Shown piece after piece: positions 1 to 62,618 of a DNA stretch of 64,000 bases. The notes under the pieces were generated by a model, which ran no database searches, was not told where the DNA came from, and saw nothing but the letters and a program-made list of their open reading frames with translations. Positions within the stretch are counted from its first letter, which is position 1. Each line of letters begins with the position of its first letter. Both the position numbers and the translations under genes were made by a program. Source of the stretch: Brasilonema angustatum HA4187-MV1 (GTDB taxonomy: Bacteria > Cyanobacteriota > Cyanobacteriia > Cyanobacteriales > Nostocaceae); assembly GCA_019359695.1 (NCBI GenBank), contig JAHHGV010000021.1, positions 62,001-126,000 of the forward strand, given 5' to 3'.

Positions 1-1
1 T

Positions 2-3000
2 GAAGTGCAATTACCAGATGCTTTAATTATTGAAGCAGGAGACTACAAGCTGCACCCAATATTACTTGATGCTTGTTTACAAACTTTAGGAGCAGCTTTT
101 GATAATGACAGCCAAAAACATACATATTTACAAGTAGGGTTAGACAGACTCAAAATTTATGGCAGTCCAGGATTTAGGCTGTATAGTCAAGTGAAAATTC
201 ATCCAATTGTTGACTTCAATCAGCCCCTGCGTAATGCTGATATAGATATTTTTGATCCAGAGGGAAGGTTAGTAGTTAAGATAGAAGGTTTGCAGTTAAT
301 GCGAACCAGTCACCAAGCATTAATGATGCAAATCAAGGAAGATTGGCAAAATTGGATTTATCAATTAGATTGGCGTTCTCAGATCCGATTTACTCAAGCA
401 CAACTCTTACCTAATTATTTACTCACCCCGGCTGAAATCGGTGTGCAAGTAGAATTAACCAAAATCAGCATTCCCAACAATCTAAAAGCTTACCAAAAAG
501 CACTAATTGAATTAGAAGCTTTGGCACTCGAATATTTACTAGATGCCTTTGCGAAAATGGGTTGGTTGTGGCAAATTGGTCAGCAGTTTTCAATAGCAGA
601 AATTGCCCAAAAATTAGGCATAGTTAACCAACATCGCCGTTTGCTAGATCGCCTGTTAGAAATATTGAGTATAGCCGGAGTATTGCAACAACAGGGAGAT
701 GCCTGGAAAGTTGGTCAAATCCCGCCACAATCAAATCCAAAATTTTTACAACAAACTCTATTACAAGAACACCCGATTGCTGAAACTGAGTTAGCTTTTT
801 TGCAGCGTTGTGGGGAGAAATTAGCCGAGGTACTCCAAGGACAAAGTGATCCGTTACAATTATTATTCCCCAACGGCGACTTTTCCGCAGCGACTAAATT
901 TTATCAGCAGTCACCTGGGTCGATGTTAATGAATACCATCGCTCAAAAAGCGATCGCCATAGCTTTAGAAAAGTTACCGAGTTACCGAGGAGTGCGGATA
1001 CTAGAGATTGGGGCTGGTACTGGCGGTACGACGGCTTACATTTTACCCCTACTAAATCCCGCCCAAACTAAATATGTCTTCACCGATGTAGGAGCCGTTT
1101 TTACTTCACAAGCAGCACAAAAATTCCGTGATTATCCTTTCGTAGAATATCACGTATTAGACATCGAAATTGACCCCCAATCTCAAGGATTTATTCCTCA
1201 TCAGTACGACATAATTGTGGCAGCTAATGTCCTCCACGCTACTACCAATTTAACTGAAACTTTACAAAACGTCCACCAATTATTAGCGCCAGGAGGTTTA
1301 CTATTATTAATTGAAGGTAGTCAGCCAATGGGCTGGATCGATCTAACCTTTGGATTAACCGAGGGATGGTGGAAATTTACCGATTTAGATATAAGACCTA
1401 ACTATCCTTTGTTGAGTGCTGATCGCTGGATAGAATTGTTAGATAAAAATGGTTTTGAAGATGCTATTAATATTGTTTCCCAATTAAATGATCGCCAAAT
1501 TATGTCTCAGTCGGCGGTCATTATAGCCCGCTCAGAATCTCTGCCTATCTCCAGTCCTCAGAATTGGCTGATTTTTAGCGATGCAACAGGAGTAGGCGAT
1601 CAATTAGCCGCACAATTACAAGATCGGGGAGAAAAATATAACTTAGTCTTCCCAGGCACCAAATACCAACAAGTAACTGAAACCGCATTTCAGGTAGATC
1701 CAGCGAATCCAGCAGACTTCGAGCGATTGCTAGGAGATTTTAGTCAAAAGTATGGATCTTTAGGTGGAATTATTCACTGTTGGAGTTTAGATACAGCCAA
1801 CCGCCAAGAATTGACGGCGGTAAATATAGACAAAACTTTAGAACTAGGCTGTGGTAGCATTTTACATTTAGTTCAATCTCTGATTAAAGCTAACTTCGCT
1901 CAATCCCCTTCGCTTTGGTTAGTTACTAGAGGCACTCAATTAGTAGATCCCAACCAAACTAATATCGCGTTAACAGAATCGACTTTGTGGGGTTTGGGCA
2001 AAACGATCGCGATGGAACATCCAGAATTTAGCTGTCGCTTAATAGATTTAGATCCCTCAGCAGATCCAGCAGAAATTTCAGTTTTATGGGCTGAAATTTT
2101 ATCGCCCGATCTCCACAGTAAAGAACATTTAGCTATTCGCCAGGGACAAAGATATCTATTGCGGTTAAAGCAAATCGAAGCTATAGAAGCCCCGCCACAG
2201 CAATTTTCATCTGATGCTACCTACTTAATTGCTGGTGGTTTAGGGGGAATTGGTTTAACAGTAGCTAGTTGGATGGTGGTTCAGGGAGCACGATATTTAG
2301 TTTTAATTGGGCGCAGTAGTCCTGACGAAGAAGCTAAAGTAACTATTCAGGAACTAGAGCACGTAGGAGCAACAGTTGTAGTAGCGGAAGCTGATATTTC
2401 TGTTACTGAGCAACTAGAGCGGATTTTGCATGAAATCCAGTCATCTTTACCACCTTTAAAAGGCATTATCCATTCTGCTGGTATCTTTGAAGATCGGCTG
2501 CTGCGAGATCATCAATGGGAACTATTTCGCAAAGTATTTGCACCCAAAGTAGCTGGAACTTGGAATTTACACACCCTCACCCAGAATTTACCTCTAGACT
2601 TTTTCGTATTATTTTCTTCTGGTTCTTCGCTTGTAGGAGCTTCAGGCTTAGGCAACTACGTGGCGGCAAATGCTTTTGTGGATGCCCTATCTCATTATCG
2701 ACACCTGCAAGGTTTACCCGGATTGAGCGTGAATTGGGGAGCTTGGAATAAGTTAGGAATGGCTGCGGCTGTTGGTACTCAGCGCGAGGCGCAATGGCAA
2801 ACTGGAGGGATGAATCAAATGACATCTCCACAAGCATTGAAAGCATTTGAATACTTACTCCAGCAAGATTTGACTCAGGCGGGAGTGATTTCCCTTGATT
2901 GGTCGAAATTTTTAGCCCAACTTCCCCAAGGAGTTAATGCCAAGTTTTTTGAAGATTTTATCTCTGCATCCGAAACATATTTACCTCAGCAATCTGTTAC

Positions 3001-4189
3001 TAAGTTTCAAAAACAACTACAGAAAGCTCCAGTTGGCGATCGCCGTCAATTGTTAATTGCTCACGTGCAAGCTCAAGTAGTTCACTTGATGGGATTAGAT
3101 GCTAACCAAGTGCCAAATTTGCAGCAAACATTTTTCGATCTAGGTATGGATTCGTTAATGTCTGTGGAATTAAGAAATCGCTTGCAGAATAGTTTAGGAT
3201 GTAATTTACCTTCGACTTTAACTTTTAAATATCCCACCTTAGGCGCAGTAGTAGATTATTTAGCCGATCAAGTTTTACAGTTAGAATTCCTATCGCAAGC
3301 TACTAGCCAAACCCTAGTAGTTACCGAACAATTGCCCTCTTGCTTAATCCCGCTTCAACCATTGGGAAGACAATCCCCATTATTTTTGCTCCATCCCTTA
3401 GCTGGAGTCGTTTTTCCCTATTATGAATTATCCTGTGTTTTAGGTGAAAATCACCCAATTTATGGACTGCAATCTATAGGTTTAGAAGTTAATGAAACAC
3501 CTTTAACCAGCATTCCCGAAATGGCTCGTCATTATCTTGGTGCTTTGCGCTTAGTTCAACCTACAGGACCGTATTATTTAGCAGGATGGTCTTTTGGTGC
3601 TAATATCGCTTTTGAAATCGCTCAACAATTACAACAAGAAGGTGAATTCGTGGCGTGGTTAGGTTTAATAGATCAACCAGCACCAGAAATTGTCAAAAAC
3701 TCTCAATTTCAAATGTTCGCTAATTTTTGGAGTTCCATTGTTCCCCGAATTTGGCCTTATGTCTATGAATACTTCTATTCACTAAATTCTGCCAACAATC
3801 AACAACCAATTTCTAATTCGATTGATAGGAGATTAACTATATGGGATTATCTGTTAAAACCACGGCAAATTGTTAGCAGCATCACGCGATCAATAGAACT
3901 AATGAAGTCACGTAAACCTGCTGTTAGCCGTTTATTGCGGATTGTCCAAATCAACAACCAAGCTTTATTAGACTACAGTCCTTCACGCTATTCAGGTCAA
4001 GTTAGTTTGTTTCGCACTGGAGATTTTACCCAATATTCCAGTGAAGATCCGACCTGGGGATGGGGTAAATTAGTTGAGCATCAAATTGATGTTGATCGTA
4101 TTCCGGGTGAGCATCTTAACTTGTTGAGACAACCTCATGTTAGTGTCTTAGCTCAAAAGATAAAAGCTTGTCTTGATCGCTTTCATTAA
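2..4189 (+). CDS. Polyketide synthase, C-terminal module with thioesterase (5'-truncated by window edge)
   Basis: The frame is open from base 2, so the gene begins outside the window; about 1,395 codons are visible. Order: tail of a dehydratase domain (HPILLDACLQ, near residue 17), a C-methyltransferase with the SAM motif LEIGAGTGGTT (about 330), a ketoreductase (GGLGGIG about 740; FSSG and NYVAANAF near 880, the Ser/Tyr region), an acyl carrier protein with the phosphopantetheine site GMDSL (about 1048) and an alpha/beta-hydrolase thioesterase (GWSFGAN about 1194; histidine in GEHLNLL about 1368). This is the final module of a reducing type I PKS: the chain is methylated, beta-ketoreduced, probably dehydrated, then released. 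The KS and AT domains must lie to the left. A carbamoyltransferase gene follows 51 bp downstream. Domain calls are firm; the product is not recognised. Confidence 0.93.
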   Translation, partial: EVQLPDALIIEAGDYKLHPILLDACLQTLGAAFDNDSQKHTYLQVGLDRLKIYGSPGFRLYSQVKIHPIVDFNQPLRNADIDIFDPEGRLVVKIEGLQLMRTSHQALMMQIKEDWQNWIYQLDWRSQIRFTQAQLLPNYLLTPAEIGVQVELTKISIPNNLKAYQKALIELEALALEYLLDAFAKMGWLWQIGQQFSIAEIAQKLGIVNQHRRLLDRLLEILSIAGVLQQQGDAWKVGQIPPQSNPKFLQQTLLQEHPIAETELAFLQRCGEKLAEVLQGQSDPLQLLFPNGDFSAATKFYQQSPGSMLMNTIAQKAIAIALEKLPSYRGVRILEIGAGTGGTTAYILPLLNPAQTKYVFTDVGAVFTSQAAQKFRDYPFVEYHVLDIEIDPQSQGFIPHQYDIIVAANVLHATTNLTETLQNVHQLLAPGGLLLLIEGSQPMGWIDLTFGLTEGWWKFTDLDIRPNYPLLSADRWIELLDKNGFEDAINIVSQLNDRQIMSQSAVIIARSESLPISSPQNWLIFSDATGVGDQLAAQLQDRGEKYNLVFPGTKYQQVTETAFQVDPANPADFERLLGDFSQKYGSLGGIIHCWSLDTANRQELTAVNIDKTLELGCGSILHLVQSLIKANFAQSPSLWLVTRGTQLVDPNQTNIALTESTLWGLGKTIAMEHPEFSCRLIDLDPSADPAEISVLWAEILSPDLHSKEHLAIRQGQRYLLRLKQIEAIEAPPQQFSSDATYLIAGGLGGIGLTVASWMVVQGARYLVLIGRSSPDEEAKVTIQELEHVGATVVVAEADISVTEQLERILHEIQSSLPPLKGIIHSAGIFEDRLLRDHQWELFRKVFAPKVAGTWNLHTLTQNLPLDFFVLFSSGSSLVGASGLGNYVAANAFVDALSHYRHLQGLPGLSVNWGAWNKLGMAAAVGTQREAQWQTGGMNQMTSPQALKAFEYLLQQDLTQAGVISLDWSKFLAQLPQGVNAKFFEDFISASETYLPQQSVTKFQKQLQKAPVGDRRQLLIAHVQAQVVHLMGLDANQVPNLQQTFFDLGMDSLMSVELRNRLQNSLGCNLPSTLTFKYPTLGAVVDYLADQVLQLEFLSQATSQTLVVTEQLPSCLIPLQPLGRQSPLFLLHPLAGVVFPYYELSCVLGENHPIYGLQSIGLEVNETPLTSIPEMARHYLGALRLVQPTGPYYLAGWSFGANIAFEIAQQLQQEGEFVAWLGLIDQPAPEIVKNSQFQMFANFWSSIVPRIWPYVYEYFYSLNSANNQQPISNSIDRRLTIWDYLLKPRQIVSSITRSIELMKSRKPAVSRLLRIVQINNQALLDYSPSRYSGQVSLFRTGDFTQYSSEDPTWGWGKLVEHQIDVDRIPGEHLNLLRQPHVSVLAQKIKACLDRFH

Positions 4190-4240
4190 GAAACTTTTTC
4201 TAAATCTCGATATCGTTACTAATTTCTGCCAATAATTACC

Positions 4241-5977
4241 ATGAGCCAAAACAAATTTTATATCGGATTGTCTGCCTCAGTCCACGATTCAGCTTTAGCT
4301 ATTGTTAATCCGGACGGAGAAGTAGTTTTTGCAGAGGCAACTGAAAGATATATGCAGAACAAGAGGGCATTCAACTGTCCTCCAGACCATTTAATTCGGA
4401 CACCTGAATTAATCCGCGAGTATTGTTCTCCCAAAGCTGAATTAGTTATAGCAATTACCTGGAGCCAGCCCATCGTTGCACTAACTAAAATTATGTCCGA
4501 ATTTTCCAGATTAACTGGCAATTTACCTATTTTTAATGATTTCTATAAAAAACTAAATTGGCCTTGGCCATCTTTGCAAACTACCATGCAGGGACAAGCT
4601 AACAATATGACTTTTGCGGGTCAAAATTTGCTTGGTAATCACGAAATTAAAAATTCTACTCAGGTAAAGTATTACGAACATCACTTAACCCACGCTGCTA
4701 ATGCTTGTTATTCGAGTTCCTTTGATACAGCTGTTTGTGCAATTATTGATGCTTATGGGGGCTGGGGGTCTTATGATTTTTACCAATATAAACACGGTAA
4801 ACTCTCAACGCTTAAAAATCCTTGGGAAGGTTTTGGTAATGGTAATCTTGGACATTTCTATGCTTTAATCTGCGCTTTATGCAGTTTTGATGTCATTAAA
4901 GGTGAAGAATGGAAAGTAATGGGACTAGCCCCCTACGGTAAATACGATGAAAATTTGTATCAATTACTGCGAACACTGATTTCTGTTAAAGGTTTAGATA
5001 TATATTTCAATAACCATCTGTACTTTCCAGTTATAGAAAAACTCCAAAGTATGATGCGAAAGCCAGATGAATCACCTTTGATATCAGCTAATTTAGCTTA
5101 TACAGGGCAGTTAATCTTTATGGAAATTATGGAAGAACTGCTGAATAATTTATATGACCGAGGATTTTCTGATTGTTTAGCTTTGAGTGGTGGGTGTGCT
5201 CTTAATTCTACCTGGAATGGTCAAATTTTAGAAAAGACCAAGTTTCGCAGTCTCTATATCCCTTCTGCACCTGCTGATGATGGTAATGCCGTCGGTGCAG
5301 CCTTACTAGCATATTATGAAGAAAGTCCCCAAGCTCAACCTCCTAAGCGGTTTTTCTCTCCATATTTAGGCTCAACTTTTTCAAAAGAAACTTTAGACAA
5401 TCTATGCAAGTTTAGCAGCATGAAAGATTTGCAATATCTACCTGGTAAAATCCATAAAAAAGCAGCGGATTTACTAGCACAGGGAAAAATCATTGGTTGG
5501 GCGCAGGGTAAGGCTGAATTCGGTCCAAGGGCTTTAGGCAATCGTTCAATATTAGCAGACCCTCGCCCAGAAGATATGATGGATCGAATTAATAGTCGAG
5601 TAAAATTTAGGGAAAAATTTCGTCCTTTAGCCCCATCCATATTACATGAATTTGGAGATGAATATTTCGAGAACTATCAGGAATCACCCTATATGAATAT
5701 AACTTTAAAATTTAAATCAGAAGTACTGGAAAAAGTTCCCGCTGTCGTTCACGTTAACGATACAGGACGCCTGCAAAGCGTTAAAAGAGAATGGTCAGAA
5801 AAATACTACGATCTGATCTACGAATTTTATCAATTAACTGGTATCCCACTAATATTGAATACTAGCTTCAATATTATGGGTAAGCCAATTATTCACTCAG
5901 TTGAAGACGCCATCAGTGTATTTTATACAACAGGATTAGATGCTTTGGTTATTGAAGATTACCTAATCGAAAAATAA
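4241..5977 (+). CDS. O-carbamoyltransferase (NodU/CmcH family)
   Basis: A 578-residue protein with the two-part architecture of NodU/CmcH/TobZ enzymes. The N-terminal Kae1-like half carries the metal-binding HHLTHA motif (about residue 146). The C-terminal YrdC-like-fold half has GPRALGNRSILADPR (about 428-442) and the NTSFN segment near the end. These enzymes transfer a carbamoyl group from carbamoyl phosphate, through carbamoyl-adenylate, to a hydroxyl group. It lies 51 bp after the PKS stop on the same strand, so it probably tailors the polyketide by carbamoylation and is co-transcribed. Length is normal and no residue is obviously lost. Family is certain; the acceptor is inferred from the neighbour. 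Confidence 0.9.
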   Translation: MSQNKFYIGLSASVHDSALAIVNPDGEVVFAEATERYMQNKRAFNCPPDHLIRTPELIREYCSPKAELVIAITWSQPIVALTKIMSEFSRLTGNLPIFNDFYKKLNWPWPSLQTTMQGQANNMTFAGQNLLGNHEIKNSTQVKYYEHHLTHAANACYSSSFDTAVCAIIDAYGGWGSYDFYQYKHGKLSTLKNPWEGFGNGNLGHFYALICALCSFDVIKGEEWKVMGLAPYGKYDENLYQLLRTLISVKGLDIYFNNHLYFPVIEKLQSMMRKPDESPLISANLAYTGQLIFMEIMEELLNNLYDRGFSDCLALSGGCALNSTWNGQILEKTKFRSLYIPSAPADDGNAVGAALLAYYEESPQAQPPKRFFSPYLGSTFSKETLDNLCKFSSMKDLQYLPGKIHKKAADLLAQGKIIGWAQGKAEFGPRALGNRSILADPRPEDMMDRINSRVKFREKFRPLAPSILHEFGDEYFENYQESPYMNITLKFKSEVLEKVPAVVHVNDTGRLQSVKREWSEKYYDLIYEFYQLTGIPLILNTSFNIMGKPIIHSVEDAISVFYTTGLDALVIEDYLIEK

Positions 5978-6493
5978 AAGTTTAGTAACCGTTCACAGGA
6001 TTTGAAACGCTACCGTGAAAAATAGGTACATGCAGCAATACCTTCGCCAAAAAAAAGGATAAGGAACCCCAGGAGAAAAATACTTCTCAGTCAAATGCGC
6101 TACTGCGCCTACGCACAACTTTTACGTCGCGCGTTTTGGTTTACATCGCTTTGGTCAACGTACTCTACTTGGAATGTATCGCTTGCCAGTGGTTGCAACA
6201 GTTACACACCTATGGGTTATTATCTGGCTCTTTTCGCCACCCCACTTGCAACAAGAACGGCACGCCGCCCAACGCAGTGGCTCCAGAAGACCAAATTTGC
6301 GTACTGCGTAGTTATATCCGTCAAACAGACAGTTTAATCAAAAACGTAGTATTTATCATTAAATGTAAACCTGTACTTAAATTTCTCCTCCAGTTGAGAG
6401 CATGATAACACAGGAGCCACAGGTCAAGCAGTGTCTATCACGTCGCACGCGGCTCATGACAGCTATATGCCCGTTAGTCCTAATCCCTTTAAA
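5978..6493. other. Junction between biosynthetic genes and truncated nifK
   Basis: About 500 bases without an intact gene. It holds the IS110-type remnant and short repeat debris. No site-specific recombinase gene and no clear terminator was found. No sequence resembling the missing nifK 3' end was seen on either strand here. Confidence 0.6.
6136..6345 (+). pseudogene. Decayed IS110-family transposase fragment
   Basis: In frame 1 the translation contains CQWLQQLHTYGLLSGSF, then after an interruption EDQICVLRSYIRQTDSLIKN. I recognise both as consecutive parts of the central region of cyanobacterial IS110-type transposases (DCQWIQ-LHTYGLL-SGSFRP followed by I-VLRSYLRQR). The two parts are split by about 50 bases (near 6240-6290) resembling the dispersed repeat found elsewhere in the window (GCCCAACGCAGTGGCTCC). 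Neither the catalytic N-terminus nor the C-terminal Ser domain is present, so it is a dead remnant. It sits between the carbamoyltransferase gene and the broken end of nifK. Confidence 0.6.
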
Positions 6494-7798
6494 TTAGCCT
6501 GATAGAAAGCGCATTGGTGAACGCATATGCCACAGGTCTTTACCAGGCCAAATAGTAGCACTCTTACCATTAGGGTTAGAATCCAGCAACTGTTTGAGTT
6601 CTTTCTCAAAGTTTTCATTGCTGTTGTGAACAAGGATATGCACGGGTTCAGCACCCATTTCCAGCATGAAGCCAACCATGCAGTACACCAGATCAGGCTC
6701 ACCGTAGATAGCGAAGCGCTTACCGTGAACCCATGAATGCGAGTCAGTCATCGCATCGACTGCCCGACCGCGTTCAATTTCCAATTCTTCGGGAATGGGT
6801 TTACCAGTCAGTTCACTGAGTTTCATCAGGAACTCATCAGTACCCTTAATACCCCAAGGACGAGAAACGACAACCTCTTGCTTCCATTCTTTGGCGATGT
6901 ATTCGCGGGTTTTGGGAGTAGAGTGTGCTTGTAGAGCAACTGTTGCTTTCCCATTAATTGAATCTGCAGCTTCTTCCAAGGGAGTACCGCCTGGGTACAT
7001 ATTAAACTCACCTGTGTTGGGTGAATCCAGATAGTCGCTGTTATCTGCCAGTATCGTGTAATCGATACCCATCAAATTACACATCCGCTTGATTTCCCGG
7101 TTGTTACCAACATAGGTGTCAAAACCAGGGATGAAGTTGATTTTGCCATTGCTGGTTTCTTTCTTCTTACCTGCAGTCAGGTTAGAAAGAATACCCTTCA
7201 TCATGTTGTCGTAGCCTGTGATGTGGGAACCAACAAAGCTAGGAGTGTGAGCAAAGGGCACTGGGAAATCTTGAGGAACTGCACCAGCATTTTTGGAGTT
7301 GTTGATGAAAGCCTGCAAGTCATCACCGATAACTTCTGCCATACAGGTGGTGCACACAGCGATCATCTTCGGCTTGTACAGTTGGTAGGAGTTTGTCAAG
7401 CCGTCAATCATGTTTTGCAGTCCACCAAATACCGCTGCGTCTTCTGTCATGGAAGAAGATACGCCAGAAAACGGTTCTTTGTAGTGACGAGTTAAGTGGG
7501 TGCGGAAGTAAGCAACGCAACCTTGGGAACCTTGGACAAAGGGTAGAGTACCTTCAAAACCAACAGCAGCGAAGATTGCGCCCAATGGTTGGCAACCTTT
7601 AGCAGGGTTAACGGTCAATGCTTCACGAGCGAAGTTCTTTTCACGATACTCCCAACTCTTCGTCCATTCTGCAACCCTTTTTACTTCTTCGGGGTCGTGT
7701 CCGTTTTCAAACTCTTTCTTGTTTTTAAATAACTCTTGGTACTCTGGCTGGTGGAATAGCTCCACGTGGTCTTGAATTTTCTCCGGATTCTGAGGCAT
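6494..7798 (-). CDS. nifK: Nitrogenase MoFe protein beta chain, 3'-truncated
   Basis: The beta subunit, with NifD, forms the MoFe protein that reduces N2. P-cluster cysteines are visible in [19 protein letters not shown] and [11 protein letters not shown]. The protein follows the cyanobacterial family closely to KDLWHMRS (about residue 427), where family members continue into a FTEPVDF-type segment and a final block of about 80 residues. Here it instead reads PMRFLSG and stops: 434 residues against about 512 expected. The other two frames do not restore the family sequence, so this is a physical break, not a simple frameshift. Downstream lie an IS110 remnant and biosynthetic genes rather than nifE. 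As it stands the product should be non-functional unless DNA is rearranged in heterocysts or another copy exists. Confidence 0.93.
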
Positions 7799-7965: not shown

Positions 7966-9504
7966 TTAGGCGACAGCCTTAGCTTCAGCCTTAGCCTCAG
8001 CTTTAGCTTCAGCTTTCTTGCTCCAAGGAGCGCCGATTAATCCCCAGGTAGGGCTGTTGAGTGCTAGATCCATGTCGCGAGCAAAGATAGCGAAGCCATC
8101 ATAACCGTGATAAGGACCGGAGTAATCCCAAGAGTGCATTTGACGGAAAGGAAGACCCATCTTTTGGAAGACATACTTCTCTTTCACACCAGAGGCGACG
8201 AGGTCGGGCTTGAGTGCTTTGATAAACTCCTCGAACTCGTAAGCAGTAACGTCATCGAAAACGATGGTGCCGTTTTCAATGTAGTTAGTGGTACGTTTGT
8301 AGTCGTCATTATGAGCAAACTCATAACCTGTACCAATCATTCTCATTCCCAAATCTTGGAAAGCGGGAACAACGTGACGAGGACGCAGACCACCAACCAT
8401 CATAGCTACAGTCTTACCTTCCAACCGTGGACGATACTTGGCAGTGATTTCATCCATCACTGGCTGGTACTTGGCGATGATCTTCTCAGCGTTTTCTTGG
8501 ATCTTCTCGTCAAACTTGGAAGCGATTTCCCGTAAGGATGCAGCAATCTTGGTAGGACCAAAGAAGTTGTATTCCAACCAGGGTATACCGTAAGCTTCTT
8601 CCATGTGACGGCTGATGTAGTTCATCGACCGGTAGCAGTGAATTAGGTTCATCTTCACGTTTGGTGTCTGCATCATCTCGTGGATGGTACCATCACCTGA
8701 CCACTGGGCGACCACGCGCAAGCCGAGTTCTTCTAACAGGATGCGGCTAGCCCAAGCATCACCACCGATGTTGTAGTCACCGATGATTGCGACATCATAA
8801 GGAGTAGACTCGAATTTGAGTGTCCCTTCTTTTCTTTCCTTATCGGATCTGCTGAACACCCAGTCACGAACCATGTCGTTCGCAATGTGGTGACCAAGAG
8901 ACTGAGAAACACCCCGGAAGCCTTCGCAACGTACGGGTACAACAGGCTTGTCAATCTCTTTAGCTGATTTTCTGGCGACGGCTTCAATGTCATCCCCAAT
9001 CAGACCGACAGGACATTCAGATTGAATTGAGACACCACGGTTGAGGGGGAAAAGTTGGTCGAGTTCTTCGATTAGTTTTATGAGTTTTTTGTCACCGCCG
9101 AAGACGATATCCCGTTCTTGGAAGTCAGAAGTGAAGTGCATGGTGCCAAAGGTGTCAACACCTGTGGTGCCGATGTAGTAGTTACGACGACCAGACCAAG
9201 ACCAGTAACCGCAACCGACAGGACCGTGGCTGATGTGGATCATGTCCTTAATGGGACCCCAGACCACACCTTTAGAACCAGCGTAAGCACAACCACGAGC
9301 GGTCATCACACCAGGAAGAGATTTGACGTTGGACTTAACGCCGCAGTCGGACTTGCCTTCTTCGTATACGTTTATATGCTTTTCCCGCTTTTTCTTAGCT
9401 TTGTCGGGGTAAGCGTCTAGAACTTCTTTAACTACTTGTTTTCTTTGTTCTACGAGCGCTTTTGGATCTTGCTCGGAAGATTTTTTGTCATCTGTATATG
9501 TCAT
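7966..9504 (-). CDS. nifD: Nitrogenase MoFe protein alpha chain
   Basis: Complete alpha subunit, 512 residues. P-cluster cysteines occur in [21 protein letters not shown] and [11 protein letters not shown]; FeMo-cofactor ligands are the cysteine in [10 protein letters not shown] and the histidine in [13 protein letters not shown]. It is slightly longer than usual because of a low-complexity alanine/lysine/glutamate tail ([15 protein letters not shown]). The reading frame is continuous across the site where the nifD excision element sits in Anabaena. It lies between nifH (132 bp upstream) and nifK (167 bp downstream) on the minus strand, as in other Nostocales, so heterocyst-specific expression is expected. 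Confidence 0.98.
8118..8128 (-). other. Unoccupied nifD-element core site
   Basis: The minus strand reads GGATTACTCCG inside the codons for DYSG near the nifD 3' end. This is the 11-bp core at which XisA recombines the nifD element of Anabaena PCC 7120, as I recall it. It occurs once and the frame is intact, so no element sits here. Confidence 0.8.
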
Positions 9505-61735: not shown

Positions 61736-62618
61736 TGATTTTCCACAACCACATTTTCATTCAACGACAGGAGCAGAACCAGATACTCAAAAGCGTGTCA
61801 AACCAAGAAATATTGCGCCAGTCATTTTGATTGCGATCGCAGTGTTGTATTTAGCTTTGGTGATATATATTCCTGCCCTCAATGTCTTCGTCCAAGCTTT
61901 TAAAGGTGGGATTGGTGCATTCTTTTCTAACCTCAGCGCACCCAATTTTCTTCATGCAGCTTGGTTGACACTAGTTTTGGCTGTGATCACAGTACCTATA
62001 AATACAGTATTTGGTTTGTGCGCAGCTTGGGCGATCGCCCGCCGCCAGTTCCCAGGTCGTGCTCTTCTTTTAAGCATTATTGACCTGCCATTTTCCATCT
62101 CACCTGTGGTTGCAGGGTTGATGGTTGTGCTACTCTATGGGCGTAATGGCTGGTTCGGTTCGCTCTTAGGAGCACTGGATTTCAAAGTCATATTCGCTTT
62201 TCCGGGCATGGTGCTGGCGACAGCTTTCGTGAGTATGCCCTTTGTCGCGCGTGAAGTTATTCCCGTTCTAGAGGAGTTAGGTAGTGACCAAGAAGAAGCA
62301 GCCAGAACACTAGGTGCAAAAGATTGGCAGATATTTTGGCGCATCACCTTGCCAAATATCCGTTGGGGTTTACTTTACGGCTTACTGTTAACCAACGCCA
62401 GAGCAATGGGTGAATTTGGTGCTGTTTCGGTAGTCTCTGGAAACATTGCAGGCAAAACTCAGAGCTTACCTTTATTTATAGAGGATTCCTACAAACAGTA
62501 TCAAACTGAAGCAGCGTTCTCTGCTGCTGTCTTGTTAGGGCTGCTTGCAGTCGTGACTTTGGTGGTGAAGGAGATTGTGGAACGGAATACAGGTAAGAAA
62601 ACAAATGTGAAACATTAA
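61722..62618 (+). CDS. cysW: Sulfate ABC transporter permease CysW
   Basis: 298 residues with about six helices and EAA loop [21 protein letters not shown], and the CysW-type [29 protein letters not shown]. Overlaps cysT, so translation is coupled. No cysA ATPase gene follows within the window. Confidence 0.95.

Follow-up and report, generated by a model that had tools for sequence, protein, structure and literature searches.

A probable nifK interruption element carrying a type I polyketide cluster in Brasilonema angustatum

The window analyzed here is a stretch of 64,000 nucleotides from Brasilonema angustatum HA4187-MV1, covering positions 62,001 to 126,000 of contig C83 (JAHHGV010000021.1), which is a 142,662-bp contig of an 8.5-Mb, 98-contig draft genome. 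The window contains the 5' part of the nitrogenase gene nifK, and the 3' part lies on the same contig and strand, co-linear with the first but 53.5 kb away. Between the two lies an element of 53,464 bp (C83:15055-68518), whose ends and neighbors are as follows (window positions, unless prefixed with C83).

1-6518, no strand: right end of the 53,464-bp nifK element, set by the border repeat and the restored NifK frame
6519-6522, repeated at C83:15055-15058, no strand: 4-bp core GAAC (GTTC in the nifK sense), from border comparison
6498-6518, no strand: right attachment arm, ACCAATGCGCTTTCTATCAGG from the border inward, matching the left arm (C83:15059-15077) as an inverted repeat
6494-7798, minus strand: nifK 5' part (codons 1-427), seven element-encoded residues and a stop, by TIGR01286 and translation
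C83:14799-15050, minus strand: nifK 3' part, TIGR01286 positions 433-516 of 516
C83:12748-14172: nifE, adjoining the nifK 3' part, by profile
C83:11408-12751: nifN, after nifE, by profile
C83:15099-16661, plus strand: xisF recombinase, 520 residues, XisF equivalog

A preliminary description of this DNA held that nifK is cut near codon 427 and given a foreign tail, which proved correct. In a profile search the open reading frame (ORF) at 6494-7798 covered positions 1-431 of 516 of TIGR01286 with 748.6 bits, and past codon 427 its translation continues with PMRFLSG, which is not NifK sequence, followed by a stop. The same description counted about 80 C-terminal residues as missing, along with nifE and nifN. 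The residues, about 84 of them, are indeed gone from the window, but a search of the same genome located them at the displaced 3' part, with nifE and nifN both present beside it, 53 kb away on C83. Removing the element in silico yielded a single open NifK frame that starts at MPQNPEK and runs for 511 residues, 98% identical to the intact NifK of the congener G004. A complete second Mo-nifK, once offered as an alternative, was rejected after identifying all 13 PF00148 matches of the genome. They comprise nifD, the two nifK parts, nifE, nifN, vnfK, the vnfDG end, chlB, chlN, two further nifE-type proteins, and two neighbors of vnfK. The latter two matched no NCBIfam model at E ≤ 1e-100, and we take them to be vnfE and vnfN from their position.

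The short direct repeat sought at the borders is present as GTTC (nifK sense) at C83:15055 and 68519. Four bases alone are weak evidence for a border, and the arms add to the case. Just inside the borders, inverted arms of the form AATGCGCTT-nnn-ATCAGG match at 16 of 20 positions, a level of agreement reached or exceeded by 8 of 200,000 random pairs of 30-mers from C83. The arms form an imperfect palindrome with a central TC, as would be expected at a serine-integrase attachment site, and they recur with variants around a central TC in relatives.

A recombinase gene had been predicted at the far border, and an intact one of the XisF family of serine recombinases stands there. It starts about 40 bp inside the left (nifK-3') border and reads inward, opposite to nifK. 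Its profile matches comprise Resolvase, Recombinase, and Zn-ribbon domains, and it scored 536 bits against the NCBIfam XisF equivalog NF041201 (cut-off 375). The stretch YARVST is kept, its serine presumably being the nucleophile. Scanning named genomes for this recombinase returned 33 public loci at 72-89% identity. NifK residues 427-511 are encoded nearby in 32 of the 33: no more than 75 bp away in 28 of them, and about 0.2 kb away in L031, 0.26 kb in L045, 1.6 kb in L042, and 4.3 kb in L019; the remaining locus (L050) begins inside the recombinase. This recurrence implies one lineage of nifK elements inserted at one codon, rather than an error of a single assembly. Two of the loci, L034 and L033, belong to Calothrix PCC 7103 and C. 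desertica PCC 7102, two of the strains with nifK elements named by Hilton, Meeks and Zehr 2016 (PMC4874684), and are split at the same codon. Among this genome and six others of its genus, nifK is split in three (this one, G001, and G002) and intact in four (G003-G006). The xisF of B. angustatum grouped with copies from Nostoc, Tolypothrix, and C. brevissima and not with those of its congeners (weak support, 82/98), which hints that the element was acquired separately from theirs.

Most of the element is biosynthetic cargo. Its 14 listed ORFs span 50,151 of the 53,464 bp, and after xisF come a rubrerythrin-like gene, a gene for a 497-residue protein, two methyltransferase genes, two more rubrerythrin-like genes, and then a block of polyketide synthase (PKS) genes, the end of which reaches into the window.

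2-4189, plus strand: 3' part of the gene for the last PKS protein (2506 aa, C83:58669-66189), with the end of DH, then MT, KR, ACP, and TE
4241-5977, plus strand: carbamoyltransferase, last gene of the PKS cluster, PF02543 and PF16861
5986-6497, no strand: stretch separating the PKS block from the border, unassigned by profile and genome search

Six co-oriented PKS proteins of 3025, 2158, 1969, 2561, 1550, and 2506 residues occupy 41,325 bp. The first starts with an AprA-type loading region (AprA_N, WH_AprA, AprA MT2-like). By profile, all six have a methyltransferase domain and the last has a thioesterase; the fifth gave no KR match, and the AT match of the second is partial (1-122 of 319). 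Among solved structures, the last protein is most similar in sequence to CurL. KS, AT, and ACP modules together with a loading unit and a release domain, all in co-oriented open frames, identify a type I modular PKS, and the pathway that the cargo encodes seems to be complete. The six PKS proteins and the carbamoyltransferase lie inside the borders, as had been supposed for the PKS genes. An IS110 remnant supposed to sit beside nifK was not confirmed: for two ORFs tested in the segment at 5986-6497, Pfam gave no match even at E ≤ 10, and when the segment was searched against the genome, the matches away from its own position were all short and partial. A segment resembling a miniature inverted-repeat transposable element (C83:17598-17713; L014) also lies between xisF and the PKS block, with inverted ends CATGTCCGGTT and AACCGGACATG and partial copies elsewhere in the genome.

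Taken together, the 3' exon, border repeat, recombinase, and cargo support the earlier suggestion that the PKS genes are carried by a large excision-type element in nifK, and we consider it highly probable that this is a heterocyst-type nifK interruption element bearing a type I polyketide cluster. The closest model is the fdxN element of Nostoc/Anabaena PCC 7120 (XisF, XisH, XisI), which shares both the recombinase family NF041201 and a split nif-operon gene, although it interrupts a different gene and C83 has no XisH match (PMC4874684). By analogy with that element, XisF would recombine the two attachment sites during heterocyst development, releasing the element as a circle in heterocysts and making nifK whole again, in line with nifE and nifN; in vegetative cells the element and its PKS genes would be retained. 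The arrangement points to a possible loss of a natural-product pathway when the nitrogen-fixing cell forms.

We asked where the PKS block came from. The carbamoyltransferase had a match at E ≤ 1e-100 in 9 of 217 family genomes (both counts including this one), and identity above 60% was found elsewhere only in G004 (98%) and in G028, Calothrix rhizosoleniae SC01 (71%, over residues 1-252, where the contig ends). G028 has a related cluster, whose relation to a nifK element is hidden by contig ends. In G004 the whole block is present at about 97% nucleotide identity at an ordinary locus (C211:28485-77995), and nifK is intact on another contig. Identity between B. angustatum and G004 is 96.3-98.2% for the PKS genes, compared with 97.3% for nifK and 96.1% for nifD; the gene for the 497-residue cargo protein is lower at 93.8%. 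As the PKS genes differ as much as nifK and nifD, a recent horizontal gain of the block between the two genomes is unsupported. Most likely, both inherited the block and it was relocated in one lineage, which would have brought the PKS block and the nifK element together; the relocation is deduced from the congener, which has the block at another locus and with a divergence ordinary for vertical descent. The right flank of the block in G004 is syntenic with C56:96185-117106 of B. angustatum, where the block is absent, and the left flank had no close match.

We searched 31 genomes behind the public loci (a set without L019 and L042) for nifK elements with both ends in view. Both nifK halves lay on one contig and strand in 16 of them, giving 17 bounded elements with our own; loci with halves on different contigs or opposite strands fall outside this count. 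The 17 range from 4.2 to 115.8 kb and total 634 kb, assuming nothing else is nested there. Scanning them for KS, AT, condensation (C), and adenylation (A) domains (tblastn, E ≤ 1e-15) found multidomain clusters of PKS or nonribosomal peptide synthetase (NRPS) genes in three: the B. angustatum element (6 KS and 6 AT matches), that of Nostoc JL34, a metagenome-assembled genome (6 KS, 6 AT, 9 C, and 6 A, plus FecCD and TonB-receptor genes), and that of C. brevissima NIES-22 (9 C and 9 A). The NIES-515 element had a single A match, and the other 13 had no match to any of the four domains at that threshold. At the DNA level (matches of at least 300 bp and at least 80% identity), the B. angustatum and JL34 elements share only the attachment-xisF end (1.6 kb at 88%), the JL34 and NIES-22 elements likewise (1.8 kb at 80%), and the B. 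angustatum and NIES-22 elements have no such match.

Two elements in nifH, found by following nearby matches rather than by survey, also have NRPS/PKS genes. The nifH of Calothrix NIES-4105 (G253, C1:3777677-3850725) is split by a 60.8-kb element and that of Calothrix PCC 7103 (G256, C7:2257244-2378223) by one of about 120 kb. An XisF-family recombinase lies at a border of both, and profiles confirmed a FecCD gene in the former and a TonB receptor in the latter. A further element, about 11 kb long, interrupts the NIES-4105 nifH at codon ~139, and nifD of PCC 7103 is in several pieces.

Several observations weigh against a functional nifK element. The common core is just 4 bp, since the right border departs from most relatives directly past it. 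The genome also has a vanadium nitrogenase set on C78 (vnfK, the vnfDG end, and the two neighbors; L001, L008, L010, L013), so nitrogen fixation might be possible with nifK unmended and selection for excision would be softened. None of the 10 XisH matches in the genome is on C83, and Hilton 2016 (PMC4874684) states that the fdxN element requires XisH. Excision itself is a prediction from sequence. The border and the vanadium genes would fit a former element that no longer excises; in that case nifK would be dead, any nitrogen fixation would fall to the vanadium enzyme, and the PKS genes would sit in a fossil. We regard this as improbable given that xisF and both arms are intact, as are the two nifK exons, nifE, and nifN, and that the stranded exon has a low ratio of nonsynonymous (pN) to synonymous (pS) differences. 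Relative to G004, the nifK 3' exon has pN 0.023 and pS 0.135, and xisF relative to its JL34 copy has pN 0.054 and pS 0.361. Part of this signal may predate the insertion, and therefore it is support rather than proof. The genome also encodes a HetR C-terminal domain (167.7 bits). Still less credible, to the point of being very improbable, is an assembly artefact or permanent rearrangement that placed nifK beside a PKS cluster by chance. Such errors are a concern in a 98-contig draft, but both borders fall within one contig, they coincide with the attachment arms and with an xisF neighbor shared by 32 of the 33 public loci, and joining the flanks exactly there restores NifK.

A different matter, compatible with a nifK excision element, is why the cargo is there. 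We lean toward its being incidental, with nif elements acting as neutral landing pads where clusters arrive at the rate set by their density in the genome. From at least 11 contigs of the B. angustatum genome with PKS/NRPS genes among the matches listed, we would roughly expect 0.7-0.8 clusters in 634 kb. Finding 3 in 17 elements is suggestive at best of recurrence above chance, and the excess is not firm; one of the three, the B. angustatum element, was chosen because it was seen first. That G004 has this cluster at an ordinary locus also favors incidental cargo. In the other direction, all three clusters belong to one weakly supported xisF clade of six (82/98), and the two nifH elements have NRPS/PKS genes too. 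A more speculative, rather unlikely idea is that programmed DNA elimination partitions specialized metabolism, whole PKS/NRPS clusters on nif excision elements confining a pathway to vegetative cells or dosing it differently, with xisF elements as a recurrent vehicle or safe harbor, including for NRPS clusters with iron-uptake genes.

Elements interrupting nifK with XisF-like recombinases are already known (Hilton, Meeks and Zehr 2016; PMC4874684). The main text of that paper, whose survey included PCC 7103, describes no PKS/NRPS cargo, and "polyketide" appears there only in the table row for hglE and a reference title. More broadly, we recognized no report of a PKS/NRPS cluster on a nif excision element in the open-access literature (subscription papers and supplements, including the tables of Hilton 2016, were outside this scope). 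The only precedent we found there for natural-product genes on a developmentally excised element is SP-beta in spsM of Bacillus subtilis (PMC4191935). As expected of the nifK element, this recombinase-bearing element is excised from a split gene in a terminal cell type, but it carries sunA (sublancin) rather than a 41-kb PKS cluster and, unlike the nifK element, is an active prophage. Metabolic cargo on a nif element is also described for the 11-kb nifD element, where the cargo named is the cytochrome P450 gene cyp110 and not a PKS/NRPS cluster (PMC1079853).

These results make an old question testable, namely whether nif excision elements are junk or bear functions. Because a sister species has a close copy of the cluster at an ordinary locus (96-98% per PKS gene), the product, expression, and cell-type distribution of the pathway can be compared with and without developmental excision. 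The results also caution that a nif gene annotated as truncated may be complete in heterocysts, and that nitrogen-fixing cells may lack the clusters borne on nif excision elements.

By profile, nifD, nifH, nifU, nifS, and nifB in the window are all whole, and the fdxN position holds an uninterrupted ferredoxin gene.

7966-9504, minus strand: nifD, uninterrupted, TIGR01282
9637-10527, minus strand: nifH, uninterrupted, TIGR01287

Further variation was seen among relatives. In L022, L020, and G009 (C1:1416903-1423113), the nifK halves are in opposite orientation, reflecting either misassembly or a gene restorable by inversion instead of deletion. In G259 (C1:6901638-6904759), G260 (C161:14463-17643), G261 (C250:58245-61295), and G271 (C755:3357-8453), a gap of about 1.7-3.8 kb breaks the nifK 5' part near codon 93, possibly a second nifK insertion variant. 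nifE is apparently interrupted around codon 188-196, next to a second, distant serine recombinase, at L022:7017-9046, L026:6982-9008, L043:7664-8985 (ORFs judged by eye in these three), and G245:C1:7780003-7787457, which looks like a nifE element adjoining the nifK element. The L019 element (~14.8 kb), viewed as ORFs only, has no large ORF; at L019:5384-10026 the attachment-site end occurs a second time, some 4.2 kb away from the 3' part of nifK, and the ORFs between the attachment-site ends resemble iron-transport permeases by eye, so that L019 is possibly two elements in tandem. Finally, by eye, an elongation factor G-like ORF lies inside the nifK elements of G253 (C1:3770253-3772343) and G256 (C7:2211488-2213578), and elongation factor G was reported in the nifK elements of some strains by Hilton 2016 (PMC4874684).
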